The notes beneath the pieces are model-generated. The model was not told the DNA's origin and made no database searches. It saw only the letters and a program-made list of their open reading frames with translations. Positions 57,702 to 64,000 of a DNA stretch of 64,000 nucleotides are shown piece by piece. How positions within the stretch are numbered: the first letter of the stretch is position 1; every line of letters begins with the position of its first letter. The translations under genes were made by a program, and so were the position numbers. Source of the DNA: Halomonas sp. HL-93 (lineage in GTDB: Bacteria; Pseudomonadota; Gammaproteobacteria; Pseudomonadales; Halomonadaceae); NCBI RefSeq assembly GCF_900086985.1, contig NZ_LT593974.1:124001-188000 (forward strand), given 5' to 3'.

Positions 57702-57778
57702 GCGCCCGTAGCTCAGTTGGATAGAGTATCGGCCTCCGAAGCCGAGGGTCGCAGGTTCAAATCCTGCCGGGCGCGCCA
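57702..57778 (+). tRNA. tRNA-Arg (anticodon CCG)
   Basis: 77 nt with the CCA end encoded. The acceptor GCGCCCG pairs with CGGGCGC. D-arm GCTCAGTTGGATAGAGT, anticodon stem TCGGC/GCCGA with loop CTCCGAA, and T-arm GCAGG-TTCAAAT-CCTGC are all regular. It reads CGG codons. A terminator follows, and the cassette array begins 80 bp downstream. Confidence 0.97.
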
Positions 57779-57857: not shown

Positions 57858-57942
57858 ATATAACGCCAGCCAGCATGCGCGGCTACGAGATGAAGGCGAA
57901 GCCACAATGTAGTAGACGTCGCCGTGCCTGGCCTAGTTATGT
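57858..57942 (-). repeat. attC site of the last cassette
   Basis: 85 bp. On the minus strand it starts ACATAAC (containing the end of the cassette gene, whose TAG follows at once) and ends GTTATAT. The inner arms TAGGCCAG / CTGGCTGG pair imperfectly, with a further hairpin inside. This is the core-site layout of an integron attC. It marks the edge of the array next to tRNA-Arg. Confidence 0.75.
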
Positions 57943-58631
57943 TGTGTATTCATTGACGCCTGAACTTTCGCTCGAGACTCCTCAAAAGATGGTCGAAAAT
58001 GTGGTTTAAATTCTTGCTCTAAGGTCATCGATATGGTGTCTAAATGTGAGCAAATGTAGCTGTCCAAGGTAGTAAAAACACGAGCAAGCTGTGATTTATA
58101 GTTTTCCATACCTAAAAATTCATCGAGCACTTTTAATGAGTGAAGATGTGCATTTATGGCACGCCAAGATGCAAAAAGACTTTCATAGCACACTAAAAAA
58201 TCAAACGAACGGCGGCCAAATTTTTTGATAATTAGATTCGGGTCTTCGTTGCCTTGATAGCGAGTATAAACTGAACAAAACTCTGCAGCATGGTGACTTA
58301 AAATACTATTCAGCGTTTTTCCACCCATTGTCGATATTTCACGTTCTAATTCAGATTTAACCACCGATGCAAAAAACGAGATATCAGACTCGATTTTTTG
58401 TAACTTTAAAGTATCAAGAGTGTATTGCTGCTGCTTTTGATGAGCTTTGATCTGAGCATATAAAAAGCTAACAGATATAACAGTAACTATTGGACCTAAG
58501 ATGCCACCAAAGAAACTTCCCATTTCAGCCCATTTTGTATGATCGCTCCACAACCCGATCCCGAATTGACTGATGTAAAGCCAAATCGGAATTAGCAAAG
58601 CCAAGAAAAAGGTGAAACCTAATATTCTCAA
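57933..58631 (-). CDS. Cassette gene: two-helix membrane protein, putative AbiC-like
   Basis: The product is 232 residues from a TTG at 58631, with AGGAG 7 nt upstream. TM1 (about 3-22) and TM2 (about 40-60, GSFFGGILGPIVTVISVSFLYAQ) are followed by a long helical cytoplasmic domain with Phe and His-rich stretches. The arrangement, W-x-D at the first loop and GxxFGG before TM2, recalls putative AbiC-type phage-abortive-infection proteins; this is resemblance, not proof. It lies exactly between two attC sites, its stop inside one of them. It is low in GC, and its codon use differs from the metabolic genes. Confidence 0.7.
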   Translation of the reverse strand: MRILGFTFFLALLIPIWLYISQFGIGLWSDHTKWAEMGSFFGGILGPIVTVISVSFLYAQIKAHQKQQQYTLDTLKLQKIESDISFFASVVKSELEREISTMGGKTLNSILSHHAAEFCSVYTRYQGNEDPNLIIKKFGRRSFDFLVCYESLFASWRAINAHLHSLKVLDEFLGMENYKSQLARVFTTLDSYICSHLDTISMTLEQEFKPHFRPSFEESRAKVQASMNTQHN

Positions 58632-58646
58632 TCATTTACTCCTAGA

Positions 58647-58731
58647 ACATAACGCCGCGTATATATAGAGGCACGAGCTTGCGAGCGTCCTGCAGCCGCT
58701 TGCAACGGCAAACTGGTACGCCTCGTTATAC
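58647..58731 (-). repeat. attC site between two cassettes
   Basis: 85 bp. It has GTATAAC and GTTATGT at the ends on the minus strand. The arms ATAACG--GCGTA match across the site, and an inner hairpin is formed by GCTTGCGAGCG and CGCTTGCAACG. The stop of the upstream cassette gene lies within its first core site. Confidence 0.78.
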
Positions 58732-58985
58732 ATTTTGAAGCATCTGAGACAGTGTTTGGGCTGAGATCGAAAGTGCTGCCGATACCGCCGCAATAGAGTT
58801 CCAGAACGATTGTACGCGAAACTTAGCGGACATATCCCAACCATCTAAGGATACGCCACCTAAGTTTGGGGTTTCGCCTTGCTTCTTAGCTTTTGCTTTA
58901 CGTCTGTAAGCGCGCCATAAACCCCATCTACCCACATTAACGTTGTCTGATCACACTGATGGTCTCTTTTGCTTTGGAGATCATC

Positions 58986-59198
58986 ATGAGCCGCGAACTC
59001 AATCCCACTCAAGCGTTTTGGTTAGGGCATCTGTCTTATGCTGCCGCGTTGCAGATGCCGTTAAGTGAATATGCCAACGCACAGGCAGTGACGTTAGCCG
59101 ACCTGATGGCGTGGGAAAATCGGTTAATCGTGCAAGGCTTCCCCGTGCCACCGCGTTGTCGTCCCGCCCGGTTTGTCGCGGTGGAGGTGGTCGCATGA
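58986..59198 (+). CDS. tnpA: IS66 TnpA-like protein (short)
   Basis: The product is 70 residues from the ATG at 58986 (GGAGATC upstream). It begins MSRELNPTQAFWLGHL and contains LSEYANAQAVTLADLMAWENRL. It is the first, small ORF of IS66 elements, needed for transposition but of unclear biochemical role. It overlaps tnpB by 4 bp. Confidence 0.8.
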   Translation: MSRELNPTQAFWLGHLSYAAALQMPLSEYANAQAVTLADLMAWENRLIVQGFPVPPRCRPARFVAVEVVA

Positions 59199-59551
59199 TT
59201 CGTCCAGGCACTGACCTAAAGGTTTACCTGTGCCGAGAGCCCGTGGATATGCGTAAGCAAATCGATGGCTTGGCACTGCTGGTTCAGGAAGCCATGGCCT
59301 TGAACCCGTTCGATCAAGCGCTGTTCGTGTTCGGTAATCGCCAGCGGGATAAAGTGAAACTGCTGTTCTGGGAACGTAACGGTTTTGTGGTGTGGTACAA
59401 GCGCTTGGAGCGTGAGCGGTTTAAATGGCCAACGCACCTTAATGGCGAGACCGTGACGTTAACCGGCCAAGAGCTTAACTGGCTGCTGGATGGCTACGAC
59501 CTGAAGGCCATGAAGCCTCACAAAGCGCTGTATTTTCAGCGAGTTGGCTAA
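59195..59551 (+). CDS. tnpB: IS66 TnpB (Orf2)
   Basis: The product is 118 residues. It has the clear TnpB pattern: VDMRKQIDGLALLVQEA, ALFVFGNRQRDKVKLLFWER and GFVVWYKRLERERFKWP. It is required with TnpA and TnpC for IS66 transposition. The start overlaps the tnpA stop as ATGA. Confidence 0.93.
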   Translation: MIRPGTDLKVYLCREPVDMRKQIDGLALLVQEAMALNPFDQALFVFGNRQRDKVKLLFWERNGFVVWYKRLERERFKWPTHLNGETVTLTGQELNWLLDGYDLKAMKPHKALYFQRVG

Positions 59552-59597
59552 CAAAATCGCCTCCTATTTTGGTGGCGCTTTTGGTATACTACGCGGT

Positions 59598-61193
59598 ATG
59601 AAAAACACGGCCTCTTCCTCGACGACGGTTACCCAGCTTGAGCGCAAGCTGGCCGCTGCTGACGCTGAAAATGCGCGGCTATTGGCGTTGATGGAAAAAA
59701 AGGAAGCGCAGTGGGAAGCCACCAAACAGTCGCTATTTGAACAGTTCCGGCTTGCCCTGGAGCGTCAGTTCGGCCCTTCCACCGAGAAGTACCGTGTCGA
59801 CCAGCAAGATCTGCTTATCAATGAAGCGGAAGTGTCGGTTGACGAGGAAGACAACGATGCTGCACCGGAGTGCGACGCCACCGCTGATGACGCGACGATC
59901 GACACTGCCACGCCTGCTAAGCGTCGTACACGCGGCGGGCGTATTGCGCTACCGCCAGAGCTACCGCGTGTCGAGATCGTCCATGAACTGCCCGACGATG
60001 CTCGCCACTGCCACGATGACGGCACCGCGCTAAAGGTGATCGGTGAGGAGGTCAGCGAGGAGTTGCATGTGGTGCCCGCGCGGATCGAGGTGATCCGCCA
60101 TGTGCGACACAAATATGCCTGCCCGACGTGCGAAGAGGGCGTCAACACAGCCCCAGCACCCGCCAAACTGTTGCCCAAGAGTAATGCCAGCGCCACGCTG
60201 CTCGCCTATATCGCGACGGCTAAATACCAGGACGCGCTACCGCTTTATCGGCAAAGCCAGATCTTTGCCCGCCATGGCGCCGAGATCCCCCGCAATACCC
60301 TGGCACGCTGGATGGTGCAGGCGGGAGAACGGATCACCCCGTTGATCGACACGTTGCGCCATCACCTCTTAAACGCCCCGCTGATCCACATGGATGAGAC
60401 GACGCTCCAGGTGAATCAAGAAGCGGATCGTGCCGCCAGTGCCACCTCGTATATGTGGGTGCAGCGCGGTGGTCCGCCGGGACAACAAGTCGTTCTGTTC
60501 GACTACGCCGCCAGCCGCGCCGGACGGGTGCCCGTTGACCTGCTGGGCGACTATGCGGGGCGCTTAATCACCGATGGCTATGAAGGCTACGCCGAGATCG
60601 TGCGTCGCAATGGGATCACCCATGCGGGCTGCTGGGCGCATGCCCGGCGCAAGTTCATCGAGGCCCAGAAGGTGCAGCCCAAAGGCAAAACTGGCAAAGC
60701 CGACTGGGCGCTGAACCAGATCCGTAAGCTGTACGGCGTGGAAAAACAGGCGAAGGCCCTTGAGCCTGAGACGCGTCACGCGCTGCGTGACCAGAAGAGC
60801 CGCCCACTGATCGATCAACTGCGCACCTGGCTCGACAAGTCACTGGCCCAGGTGTTGCCCAAAAGCGCGCTGGGGAAAGCCCTACACTATCTAGATAACC
60901 AGTGGCCTCGCCTGACCCGGTTCCTGGACGATGGCCTGATCCCGTTCGACAACAATCCGGCAGAGAACGCTATCCGCCCGTTCGTGGTGGGGCGTAAAAA
61001 CTGGCTGTTCAGCCACACCCCGAGCGGTGCTCACGCCAGCGCGGCGATCTACAGCCTGATCGAAACCGCCAAAGCCAATGGCCTCTCGCCTTACGACTAC
61101 TTGCAGTACGTCTTTGCGACACTGCCCGCCCTCGACGATGATGAGCTCCACACGCTGCTGCCCTGGCAGTGGAAAGAGACATTGCCGGTCTAA
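59598..61193 (+). CDS. tnpC: IS66 TnpC transposase
   Basis: The product is 531 residues from the ATG at 59598. A coiled-coil start (QLERKLAAADAENARLLALM) precedes a zinc-finger-like CPTCEEGV region. The DDE domain has IHMDETTLQV, ITDGYEGYAEI, HAGCWAHARRKF and the final Glu in PFDNNPAENAIRPFVVGRKN. This is the catalytic subunit. The protein is full length, so the element could be mobile. Confidence 0.95.
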   Translation: MKNTASSSTTVTQLERKLAAADAENARLLALMEKKEAQWEATKQSLFEQFRLALERQFGPSTEKYRVDQQDLLINEAEVSVDEEDNDAAPECDATADDATIDTATPAKRRTRGGRIALPPELPRVEIVHELPDDARHCHDDGTALKVIGEEVSEELHVVPARIEVIRHVRHKYACPTCEEGVNTAPAPAKLLPKSNASATLLAYIATAKYQDALPLYRQSQIFARHGAEIPRNTLARWMVQAGERITPLIDTLRHHLLNAPLIHMDETTLQVNQEADRAASATSYMWVQRGGPPGQQVVLFDYAASRAGRVPVDLLGDYAGRLITDGYEGYAEIVRRNGITHAGCWAHARRKFIEAQKVQPKGKTGKADWALNQIRKLYGVEKQAKALEPETRHALRDQKSRPLIDQLRTWLDKSLAQVLPKSALGKALHYLDNQWPRLTRFLDDGLIPFDNNPAENAIRPFVVGRKNWLFSHTPSGAHASAAIYSLIETAKANGLSPYDYLQYVFATLPALDDDELHTLLPWQWKETLPV

Positions 61194-61373
61194 GCGACGC
61201 GTGAATAGATGGGGTTAGTGGAGCGCTTACTTACGTCTCTCTACCTCCTTCTCGCGAGTAACCTTTACTACGCTCGACCGCAACCAACAAGCTGCGGAAA
61301 TGAAGCCTGAAGCAATAGCAATTAATCCCAAAATATTCATAAATGTACCCAGGTCGCGCAATTTACGACAGAT

Positions 61374-61479
61374 GCGTAACGCCATTGTTCAGCGGCAGCC
61401 TTGGCAGAGCGGAGCGGCGACAAGGCTGTCCGGTGGAGGGCCCATCGGGCCTGGAACGAGCTGAAACAAATTGTTAGTG
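61374..61479 (-). repeat. attC site upstream of the split cassette
   Basis: 106 bp. On the minus strand the ends are CACTAAC and GTTACGC. Inner arms TGTTTCAGC and GCTGAACA pair, and the centre has CAGCCTTG / CAAGGCTG. It follows the stop of the 140-residue cassette gene by 2 bp. Confidence 0.75.
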
Positions 61480-61481
61480 TT

Positions 61482-61904
61482 CTAGCTATAATCTTTATTG
61501 GACATGCGATCACGTATGTCATCAATCAGTCTCGCTCCGGCGGAAGTGGTCATTGAAACCACGAAAGATGTCGCTCCAAAAACTGTCAGCTTGTCTGATT
61601 CGAATTCCCCTAGCCCAATTACAAAAACTAAAGGTATAAGTAACAGCAAACCAATAACAAAATTGAAAAGCGCATATGTACCGAACTCCACTGGTGGATA
61701 ATCATCCCATAGATATCCAACTCCGTCCCCAACGAACTGGCCAGCGAATCCCGTTGCCGCACCAATAATTGCGCCCCCTAAAGCCGTAGCGCCTGTAGGG
61801 TCAATTATCCCCACCATTGCTCCTGCAGTTGCTCCACTTGCTGCACTTCCAGTCGCGTTTTTAAAGGATTTTTTCCAAGACCACGTCTTATCTGGATTTT
61901 TCAT
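61482..61904 (-). CDS. Cassette gene: glycine-zipper membrane protein
   Basis: The product is 140 residues from the ATG at 61904, with GGAGG 8 nt upstream. A basic start (MKNPDKTWSWKKSFKNATG) leads to a long Gly/Ala zipper (AASGATAGAMVGIIDPTGA, GGAIIGAATGFAGQ). A clear membrane segment follows (FVIGLLLLIPLVFVIGLG) and possibly a second (VFGATSFVVSMTTSAG). The tail is charged. The zipper form suggests a self-associating membrane protein; the function is unknown. It is bounded by two attC sites, the upstream one broken by an IS1182-family element. Confidence 0.75.
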   Translation of the reverse strand: MKNPDKTWSWKKSFKNATGSAASGATAGAMVGIIDPTGATALGGAIIGAATGFAGQFVGDGVGYLWDDYPPVEFGTYALFNFVIGLLLLIPLVFVIGLGEFESDKLTVFGATSFVVSMTTSAGARLIDDIRDRMSNKDYS

Positions 61905-61947
61905 TGTTCTATCCTCCAATGGTCAGGGTTATCTGTTGAACACTAAC

Positions 61948-63773
61948 GAGGCTGTAGAAAAACCTGATTTCGAGCCATCTCCACCGCCTGTTATCCTTAT
62001 TTATTTACCCAGCCGGTCATCTGGCTGAGTAATCTTAATGTCGGCATTTAGCCACTTGAGCGCCCAGCTTAAGCCAGTTGAAGACAGTGTTTTGCGCTCA
62101 CAAAGCAACATACCCCACTCCAAGCCCTTCATGACGCGTCCAAATGGCCATAATTCGCTAGCTTCTCAATATTGTGCACCAAGCAGTATAGCTGCCACTG
62201 ACCTTGCACCTTTTTCTTACCCCGAAGGCTGAAGCGGTTCAGTCTTTTTGTCGTGCCAATATTGCCGAACACCGGCTCTACGACTGACATTCGATGACTG
62301 TAAATTTCTTTGCCCTTGGGGCTATCGACTCGGTGCTTCATCCAGCCGGTATAATTGGGTAAGTTATTGTTCCCGATAATAAAAGACACTTGTCGCCCAG
62401 CGCCGTTGCGATGGTCGGCCGAGCTTGGGTTCTGCATGCACCGGTATTTCTTTGGGCAATGCCGACATTGCAGTAAACGGCCTTCGAAGTGCACCCGGAT
62501 CTTGCCATTGTCGGCTTCCCGCTGCCCTCGATAGGTCAGCTTTTCGCCAGCTGGACAGATACACGTTAGCTTTACAGGATCAAATTGGAACGCGCTGGCG
62601 GGCGTCGTCTCTCGCCAGCCTTTGTCCGGCAGGTTCTGATGGCGCTTGCCGTATTTGTCTTTCTGGTCGGCGAACTTCGGATCTCGGCTGCGGAACTGGT
62701 TATCGGGGATGTAGCCATTGATCTGTCGTTCGTGCAGGTACTTCATATTCGCTTCATTGGCGAAGCCGGTATCCGCGGTGACGACGGTGCCTTGCTGGTA
62801 GATATTTTCCGCAATCTCCAGCTTCTGAAAACGGGCTTCGACCGTTTCCAGTACGGGCTGCAAAGTGTGGTGTTCCTGGCCTTCACCAAAGGCCTGAGCG
62901 TCAATGACGATCTGGTGTTTTTTATCCACCGTGGCGACACCGTTATAGCCCTGGATCGTGCCCTTGCTGGTCGTCATTTTGGCACTTTCGTTATCGGTCA
63001 GATTGCTCTTCACTTCCTTGATTCGCTTCCCCCGGCCCATCCTTGGGCTGTGCGTCTTTAGGAAACGATCCACTTTGTTCATGGCGGTATCTAGCGAGAG
63101 AATCGTCTTGGCCCGTCGGATATCCCGATCCAGATCGGCTTCCGTCTCGGCCTCATCACGCGCGTAGTGCTCCAGTAGGTGATGCCGAATCAGGCCTCTC
63201 AGTTTCTCACGTTTCTCGTCCAATTCTTTGAACGTGCCAGACCACTCTTTTGAGGCATCGGAGGACATCTTGCAGCCATCAATCGCAAAGAGTTCGTTAC
63301 CTAGCAAGCCTTGTTCGTGGCACACCAGCAGCACTTGTTCGAACAGCACTTCAATCTCATCGACATGGCGGCTAACGAAGCTGGCCAGTGTGGTGAAGTG
63401 GGGAACGGTATCGCAAGAAAGGGCTTTGAAAATAATATTGGTCTCGCAGCTCCACTGCATCTCGCGACTGGAGGTGATGCCTTTTGAGTAAGCAAACAGG
63501 ATAATCTTAAGCAGGATGGCCGGATCGTAGGCCAGCCGACCGGTCGCATCGTTGCGGTACTTGGGATGGAAAACGGATAAGTCGAGCTTGTACTCGATCA
63601 GGTAGTGCACGGCGTGTTCAAAGGTACCTGGCTGGAGCTGATCCTGGTAGTTGATCACCACCATGGCGTTCTGATCGTAGTTATAAGCCTTGAAGCGCGG
63701 CATGCTGACCACTCCTCGTCTGTTTCCTCGATCCTACCAAAACTTAGGCGTCCGCGGGTTTTTCTACAGCCTC
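61948..63773 (-). mobile_element. IS1182-family insertion sequence inside an attC
   Basis: 1826 bp with perfect inverted ends GAGGCTGTAGAAAAACC. The flanks show AAC on both sides, so the target duplication is 3 bp or the target itself has it. Removing the element rebuilds CACTAAC-GCTTTACTCACC, the end of an attC. The insertion point is therefore inside the attC core site at GTT. One intact transposase gene fills the element. Confidence 0.88.
62129..63703 (-). CDS. IS1182-family transposase
   Basis: The product is 524 residues from the ATG at 63703 (GAGGAG upstream; a GTG three codons earlier is possible). The N-terminal DUF772 region is LAYDPAILLKIILFAYSKGI, followed by the DDE domain (FAIDGCKMSSDASKEW, VTADTGFANEANMKYL) and the end MSVVEPVFGNIGTTKRLNRF. 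A Cys-rich insertion (CRHCPKKYRCMQ) is usual for the family. It appears complete. Confidence 0.93.
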   Translation of the reverse strand: MPRFKAYNYDQNAMVVINYQDQLQPGTFEHAVHYLIEYKLDLSVFHPKYRNDATGRLAYDPAILLKIILFAYSKGITSSREMQWSCETNIIFKALSCDTVPHFTTLASFVSRHVDEIEVLFEQVLLVCHEQGLLGNELFAIDGCKMSSDASKEWSGTFKELDEKREKLRGLIRHHLLEHYARDEAETEADLDRDIRRAKTILSLDTAMNKVDRFLKTHSPRMGRGKRIKEVKSNLTDNESAKMTTSKGTIQGYNGVATVDKKHQIVIDAQAFGEGQEHHTLQPVLETVEARFQKLEIAENIYQQGTVVTADTGFANEANMKYLHERQINGYIPDNQFRSRDPKFADQKDKYGKRHQNLPDKGWRETTPASAFQFDPVKLTCICPAGEKLTYRGQREADNGKIRVHFEGRLLQCRHCPKKYRCMQNPSSADHRNGAGRQVSFIIGNNNLPNYTGWMKHRVDSPKGKEIYSHRMSVVEPVFGNIGTTKRLNRFSLRGKKKVQGQWQLYCLVHNIEKLANYGHLDAS

Positions 63774-63841
63774 AACGCTTTACTCACCGGAAAATGACGA
63801 GCGCCAGCGAGATATTTTTCCGGTGCAGTAACTTGTTAAGT
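63771..63841 (-). repeat. attC site broken by the IS1182-family element
   Basis: On the minus strand it begins ACTTAAC (a perfect RYYYAAC core) and continues AAGTTACTG-CACCGG to the IS. The matching arm TTTACTCACCGG adjoins the element, and the last core bases GTTAGTG lie on the far side of the IS at 61941-61947. It is probably no longer usable for recombination. Confidence 0.75.
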
Positions 63842-64000
63842 TTTGGCATCCCAAACTTCAAATTTATTGTCATGAATGACAATCGCTTGTGTGTTGCTAA
63901 TTGGGCAAAGATCTATTTTCCCTTCATAGGTAGAGATGATTCTTTCGACTGACTCTTTGAATGGAAAGTTTGTATGATGAGGAACCGGATAAAAATCAAT
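63836..64000 (-). CDS. Cassette gene, partial at the window end
   Basis: An open frame enters from the right edge and stops at 63836, within an attC core. About 54 residues are visible: the segment FKESVERIISTYEGK and the end NKFEVWDAKT. It is soluble in character and AT-rich. The family is not recognised. As with the other cassette genes, the stop codon lies in the attC, so this is the 3' end of one more cassette. Confidence 0.6.
   Translation of the reverse strand: MDFYPVPHHTNFPFKESVERIISTYEGKIDLCPISNTQAIVIHDNKFEVWDAKT

Follow-up and report, generated by a model that had tools for sequence, protein, structure and literature searches.

Introduction

The closest described counterparts of the locus treated here are clusters of attC sites lacking an integron integrase (CALINs). 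In PMC9024848 CALINs are about as frequent as complete integrons (2961 vs 2760), and IntegronFinder is stated to detect no attI outside class 1. CALINs have been proposed as decay products. Within the accessible text of the openly licensed CALIN literature, including PMC7923331, PMC9024848, PMC11023631 and PMC12444791, no attI-headed array without the integrase gene intI is reported. For Halomonas in combination with CALINs or integrons, the accessible part of the openly licensed literature yielded only work on carbonic anhydrase.

The locus lies in Halomonas sp. HL-93, whose 4.14-Mb genome is a single contig (C1). The window, that is, the whole stretch of 64 kb that was analysed (bases 124001-188000 of C1), contains near its right edge an array of attC sites and cassette genes beside a tRNA-Arg gene. 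We consider it probable that this array belongs to a chromosomal integron whose attI platforms, with no intI of their own, are dispersed over the chromosome and would be filled by the integrase IntI acting in trans. The window array would then be one arm of an integron spread over several loci, with four cassettes between the tRNA-Arg gene and an attI-type head. The head corresponds to the attI and the adjoining intergenic region of one resident-integron type, without its intI. An IntI from another locus, resident or passing, would use attI x attC recombination to place cassettes at the head, and the first cassettes may have the advantage of a nearby promoter.

The attC array in the window

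The attC sites were identified with a covariance model (R1) of 46 attC sites that lie beside intI genes of other genomes, with 19 base pairs. Its training set includes genomes of the same genus and excludes the window and the rest of the HL-93 genome. The starting set had 87 sites from 19 loci; those of HL-93 (12) were excluded, 51 of the other 75 were aligned and 46 were used; the five aligned sites that were dropped were either mis-oriented (one) or long or odd (four). A hand-made attC scanner served only for collecting the training sites. The covariance model was used for counts because the scanner also matched coding DNA. The base-pair statistics of the training alignment are inflated, as the scanner picked paired arms, and are not used as evidence.

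At E ≤ 1, R1 matches the window at four places only, and these are the four attC-like sites that a sequence-only reading had picked out. They lie on the same strand with gaps of 0.7-2.6 kb. Their orientation fits the minus-strand cassette genes that alternate with them to the right of the tRNA-Arg gene. The stops relate to the core boxes as that reading described: the stops at 58726 and 63836 fall inside a box, the stop at 57933 touches one and the stop at 61482 is 2 bp from a box that extends to 61479. As a positive control, the array of the genome's own intI (locus L048, outside the training set) gives 14 matches at E ≤ 1e-5 and one weak match (E 0.064). A run over the whole genome gives 35 matches at E ≤ 1, which include three window sites and miss the weak attC2. 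R1 also matches once or more at E ≤ 0.001 in 74 of 76 genomes of the genus.

The sequence-only reading had called the array a CALIN and had seen no integrase in view. At least two clustered attC sites in the same orientation without a nearby integron integrase define a CALIN, and the four window sites fit this definition. A single TIGR02249 match in the genome exceeds the cut-off; it is found at C1:1765130-1766062, at a distance of 1.58 Mb from the window array. It scores 394.8 bits, covers positions 2-313 of 315 without a stop and heads its own cassette array (L048). The label CALIN is supported, as the covariance model does not reject the sites and two relatives (G005 and G070) have different cassettes at the same flank, and it is incomplete in two respects: the genome retains this unbroken intI, and an attI-derived head lies past the window edge. 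Followed beyond the right edge, the array continues through the fourth cassette gene and ends at 64497 in window numbering (C1:181858-188497), where the head begins.

An attI-derived head at the array boundary

The window head extends from C1:188497 to about 188680, or 497-680 bp past the window edge. TAACAG, which forms the crossover side of an attI, marks the end of the array, and the head begins at the crossover point. Over 38 bp the head is 94.7% identical to the attI of the genome's own intI. An alignment of 66 head copies shows an element of ~180 bp. These copies come from 59 loci (L148-L206) in the upper part of the match list plus the window's own, and are biased to well-kept copies; L207 and a second match in L195 are too short and are not counted. 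Mean conservation per ten columns rises from 0.35-0.39 before TAACAG to 0.75-0.94 behind it (0.64 at a single dip) and drops to ≤0.5 past a hairpin-like GGGTCG. At five intI loci (G000, G013, G032, G051 and G052) the attI-intI intergenic region can be aligned with the head consensus, and the consensus ends just before intI and the preceding box, which we take to be LexA-like.

A sequence profile (R2) was made from 44 heads, with the two of HL-93 excluded; 57 of the 66 copies passed the length and identity filters. R2 scores the window head at 130 bits and the region of the genome's own attI at 76.9 bits. By homology, in these scores and in the crossover position at the array boundary, the window array appears to carry the attI that heads a complete integron. 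An adjoining intI, the other mark of a complete integron, is absent at the window head, and no intI remnant was found beside it. Among all 66 heads, the window's included, none has an IntI-like match (E ≤ 1e-3) beyond the head within the fetched DNA, which reaches ~1.0 to 4.2 kb.

IntI could also place cassettes at non-classical genomic sites (attG), for which no attI is needed. Such insertion is reported (Loot et al. 2024, as cited in PMC12444791), and it could account for a headless attC pair at 402 kb and a single attC at 1.20 Mb in HL-93. An attG boundary would be arbitrary sequence without attI. The boundary of the window array and of many dispersed arrays is instead a conserved ~180-bp attI-related element. 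For the window array the attG explanation is disfavoured, and we judge it highly improbable.

Cassette turnover and sharing at orthologous heads

Cassette turnover in relatives, on which the sequence-only reading had made its array interpretation depend, is found at the same flank. At the tRNA-Arg gene of the window, three of 20 fetched relatives have a head (G005, G070 and G118); in the other 17 there is no head match within the fetched stretch. G005 and G070 have attC arrays between the tRNA gene and a like head, and these have no DNA match to the window cassettes. G118 has one attC. The DNA beyond the head in these relatives is also unlike that of the window genome.

The 66 heads include 11 orthologous pairs, defined by an identity of 85% or more across 900 bp or more of DNA outside the head. 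None of the 11 has a common 150-bp stretch next to the crossover; for two of them, one crossover side offers only 615 bp. In four pairs the far flank could be located as well, the flanks being 88-95% identical. In G000/G072 (flanks 94% and 95%) the DNA between the flanks measures 4220 vs 3297 bp, in G005/G046 (91% and 93%) 3444 vs 4383 bp, in G006/G012 (93% and 88%) 4165 vs 983 bp and in G052/G061 (95% and 91%) 3172 vs 3953 bp. The last is a weaker case of turnover because R1 finds no attC in the G052 stretch. In G005/G046 and G006/G012, the kept far flank starts about 15 bp or less from where the terminal attC ends.

A single 800-bp cassette is present in the intI integron of G052, as the third cassette in a headed array of G038 (96%) and as the first in G012 (88%), where it lies at distance 0 from the head crossover. 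Cassette sharing together with turnover up to the head crossover is the pattern expected from attI x attC insertion at the head.

Distribution of heads and their association with attC sites

Within the genus, 58 of 82 genomes match a 181-bp head query, with up to eight matches per genome; these include short matches, some at an attI beside intI or its remains. Heads and arrays are associated. In the fetched loci 65 heads are testable, and for 53 of them an attC of matching orientation lies no more than 3 kb away on the crossover side; for none does one lie there in the opposite orientation. The corresponding count for the other side is 9 of 60. In HL-93, R2 finds eight places at E ≤ 1, one of which is the genome's own attI. 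Five intI-less heads, those of the window and at 2.28, 3.20, 2.87 and 1.18 Mb, have at least two same-orientation attC sites on the crossover side, the nearest at 0.35-2.1 kb. Two of these heads are weak (19.6 bits at 2.87 Mb and 22.8 bits at 1.18 Mb), and the two attC sites at 1.18 Mb score only 20-21 bits. At the head at 1.66 Mb the attC is 6.3 kb away.

Within the order, 15 of 390 sampled genomes have head matches. Fourteen belong to the same family as HL-93, and the other match is weak (E 6.4e-4). No heads are found at E ≤ 1e-3 among 72,556 plasmid and 50,697 phage records.

At six intI-less heads in five genomes (L166, L188, L158, L198, L174 and L197), the position of intI is taken by a tyrosine recombinase of 211-213 amino acids (203 in L197) that consists of the catalytic domain only and reads away from the head. 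Several heads are followed by ~720 bp of conserved sequence that includes this gene; G070 and G008 each have it twice. Tandem heads ~1.8-1.9 kb apart occur within one locus in L174, L182 and L193. These features would suit a different mechanism, in which head and array move as one unit, by the small recombinase or by homologous recombination, and whole units are swapped; this would also explain the spread of heads. The window head, however, has no adjoining recombinase gene, and turnover at orthologous loci goes no further than the crossover, the head and outer flank still being orthologous. What the arrays have in common is a single cassette and not a unit, and the absence of heads from the plasmid and phage records also speaks against mobility of the unit. 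We regard this mechanism as improbable.

Two further observations concern the surroundings of heads and arrays. The outer end of the head abuts the end of a DUF427-type gene in 15 cases from 13 genomes (PF04248 was tested for L196:6881-7204 only). Near an array of G037 lies a 288-amino-acid tyrosine recombinase, which was not taken as an integron integrase because the open reading frame that follows it resembles an IS91-type transposase.

Degraded integron or distributed platform

The more conventional explanation is an ordinary CALIN, in which a degraded integron has lost intI by deletion and the head is a leftover, inactive attI. Most of the tallied genomes have no intI match above the cut-off, yet many have heads, and the window array is interrupted by two insertion sequence (IS) elements; both points fit degradation. 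However, tens of heads at different loci fade near the same point, before the would-be intI start. Separate losses of intI would not easily produce such a pattern. Orthologous arrays are replaced and not just shortened, and HL-93 itself retains an unbroken intI. We consider an ordinary CALIN unlikely, though less so than the attG and mobile-unit explanations.

Several observations weigh against a distributed integron as proposed here. Among the 73 genomes covered by both the intI and the head searches, 15 have an intI above the cut-off without stops (one of them, in G015, misses the first 41 profile positions), three have one with stops and 55 have none. Head matches nevertheless occur in 36 of these 55, and 25 of the 36 have two or more. 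Most heads are therefore without present-day intI service, and many headed arrays may now be idle remnants. The attI motif fits the heads well at only five of 13 examined intI loci of the genus, and for this reason the heads are assigned to one attI type. Of the other eight loci, two fit loosely (G038 and G061), one is misplaced by the motif (G035) and five are without it (G001, G009, G024, G043 and G065), some of these five reading similarly by eye. The head continues for 130 bp past the attI part; a scan of the window head gave neither promoter-like nor terminator-like sites, and a search for RNA structure in the head found none that is conserved (covariation term -0.18). In HL-93, the head at 0.22 Mb has no attC and the attC pair at 0.40 Mb (402 kb) has no head.

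With these points included, we still favour a chromosomal integron with dispersed attI platforms that have no intI of their own as the probable reading of the window array, with IntI presumably acting in trans. A broader proposition is that one integrase, resident or passing, would serve many such platforms, so that the CALIN "debris" of the family would be live docking sites with a common cassette pool. We hold the chances of this to be even.

Insertion sequences and other features of the array

The features of the array are listed in Table 1. The two IS elements that the sequence-only reading had seen are an IS66-family element, which breaks one cassette gene, and an IS1182-family element, which splits attC4.

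Table 1. Features of the attC array and its left flank, in window numbering
Feature	Position	Strand	Evidence
tRNA-Arg (anticodon CCG), left flank of array	57702..57778	+	ARAGORN; Rfam tRNA 71.6 bits
attC1, terminal, belongs to last cassette	57858..57942	- (cassette orientation)	R1 38.8 bits, E 1.3e-9
Cassette gene, 232 amino acids, N-terminus hydrophobic by eye	57933..58631	-	Open reading frame
attC2, weakest of the four	58647..58731	-	R1 21.8 bits, E 3e-4; missing from whole-genome run
Cassette gene broken by IS66, 3' part	58726..58905	-	Open reading frame, sequence
IS66-family element, 8-bp target duplication	58906..61230	+	Pfam DDE_Tnp_IS66; ends from sequence
attC3 (core box to 61479)	61374..61478	-	R1 31.6 bits, E 2.4e-7
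Cassette gene, 145 amino acids	61482..61919	-	Open reading frame; nothing above cut-off in Pfam/NCBIfam
attC4, core box severed by IS1182-family element, ends CTAAC	61941..61947	-	Sequence
IS1182-family element	61948..63773	-	NCBIfam transpos_IS1182 258 bits, under cut-off 270; flanks
attC4, main part	63774..63841	-	R1 match 63769-63841, 44.2 bits, E 2.5e-11
S51 (PepE-like) peptidase cassette gene, 207 amino acids	63836..64000, on to 64459 past the window	-	Peptidase_S51 6.9e-54; L009:7837-8460

A copy of the IS66-family element that is 100% identical (2326 bp) is present in the array of the resident intI integron (L048 5651-7976). The identity of the two copies is a sign of what would be recent transposition. 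The same resident integron holds two copies of a 252-amino-acid cassette gene (L048 1987-2745 and 3372-4130), and their listed translations are identical.

The IS1182-family element is inserted at the AAC of the attC4 core box, with AAC on both sides. attC4 still scores well because the end of the element stands in for the lost box. Relatives of the element were found by DNA similarity and not by attC, and occur in 30 of 82 genomes. The triplet to their left is AAC in 27 of the 30 (one copy each), and TAAC is present in 26 of the 30. Among 19 copies with both ends located, an R1 attC begins at the right end in 15; the four without are in L233, L238, L240 and L242. The position of these elements in attC does not look like chance, and from the left and right flanks together the family appears to target attC sites specifically. 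Another IS group, IS1111, inserts at attC. For IS1182, a search of titles and the starts of abstracts in the openly licensed literature gave no report of attC targeting.

No anti-phage family was found for four cassette proteins. The 232-amino-acid protein has no Pfam or PADLOC match and one NCBIfam match far under the cut-off. Rfam finds the tRNA and one match under the cut-off between 57 and 64 kb, and nothing else. On the right flank, a transposase gene with HTH_38 and rve domains (L009:11209-12213), which we take to be IS30-like, seems by eye to break a minus-strand gene.

Comparison with known systems

If CALINs carry their own attI platform and still trade cassettes, one integrase would act across the whole genome. 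Many "orphan" arrays would then belong to a functioning system, and searches that take attI into account would classify them anew. The origin of CALINs would also become testable, as heads can be found by sequence and assayed with the resident IntI.

Insertion at attG, as reported by Loot et al. (2024; cited in PMC12444791), resembles the proposed mechanism in that IntI places cassettes away from its own locus. It differs in that it needs no attI, while the boundary here is attI-derived. With CALINs, as set out in PMC9024848, the window array shares a cluster of attC sites, cassette genes in one orientation and the absence of a nearby intI. Unlike them, it has a conserved attI-type head, and orthologous heads show turnover of the whole array. 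The Xanthomonas CALINs at conserved loci away from ilvD (PMC12444791) are likewise dispersed arrays at recurring chromosomal sites, and their genomes may also keep one intI; no attI-type head is mentioned in the accessible part of that paper. Sedentary chromosomal integrons differ from the window array, where the attI has no adjoining intI and several platforms occur per chromosome. They resemble it in the attI-type site at one end, the attC-bounded cassettes and the similar attC types, and some cassettes are common to the headed arrays and the intI integrons of the genus.

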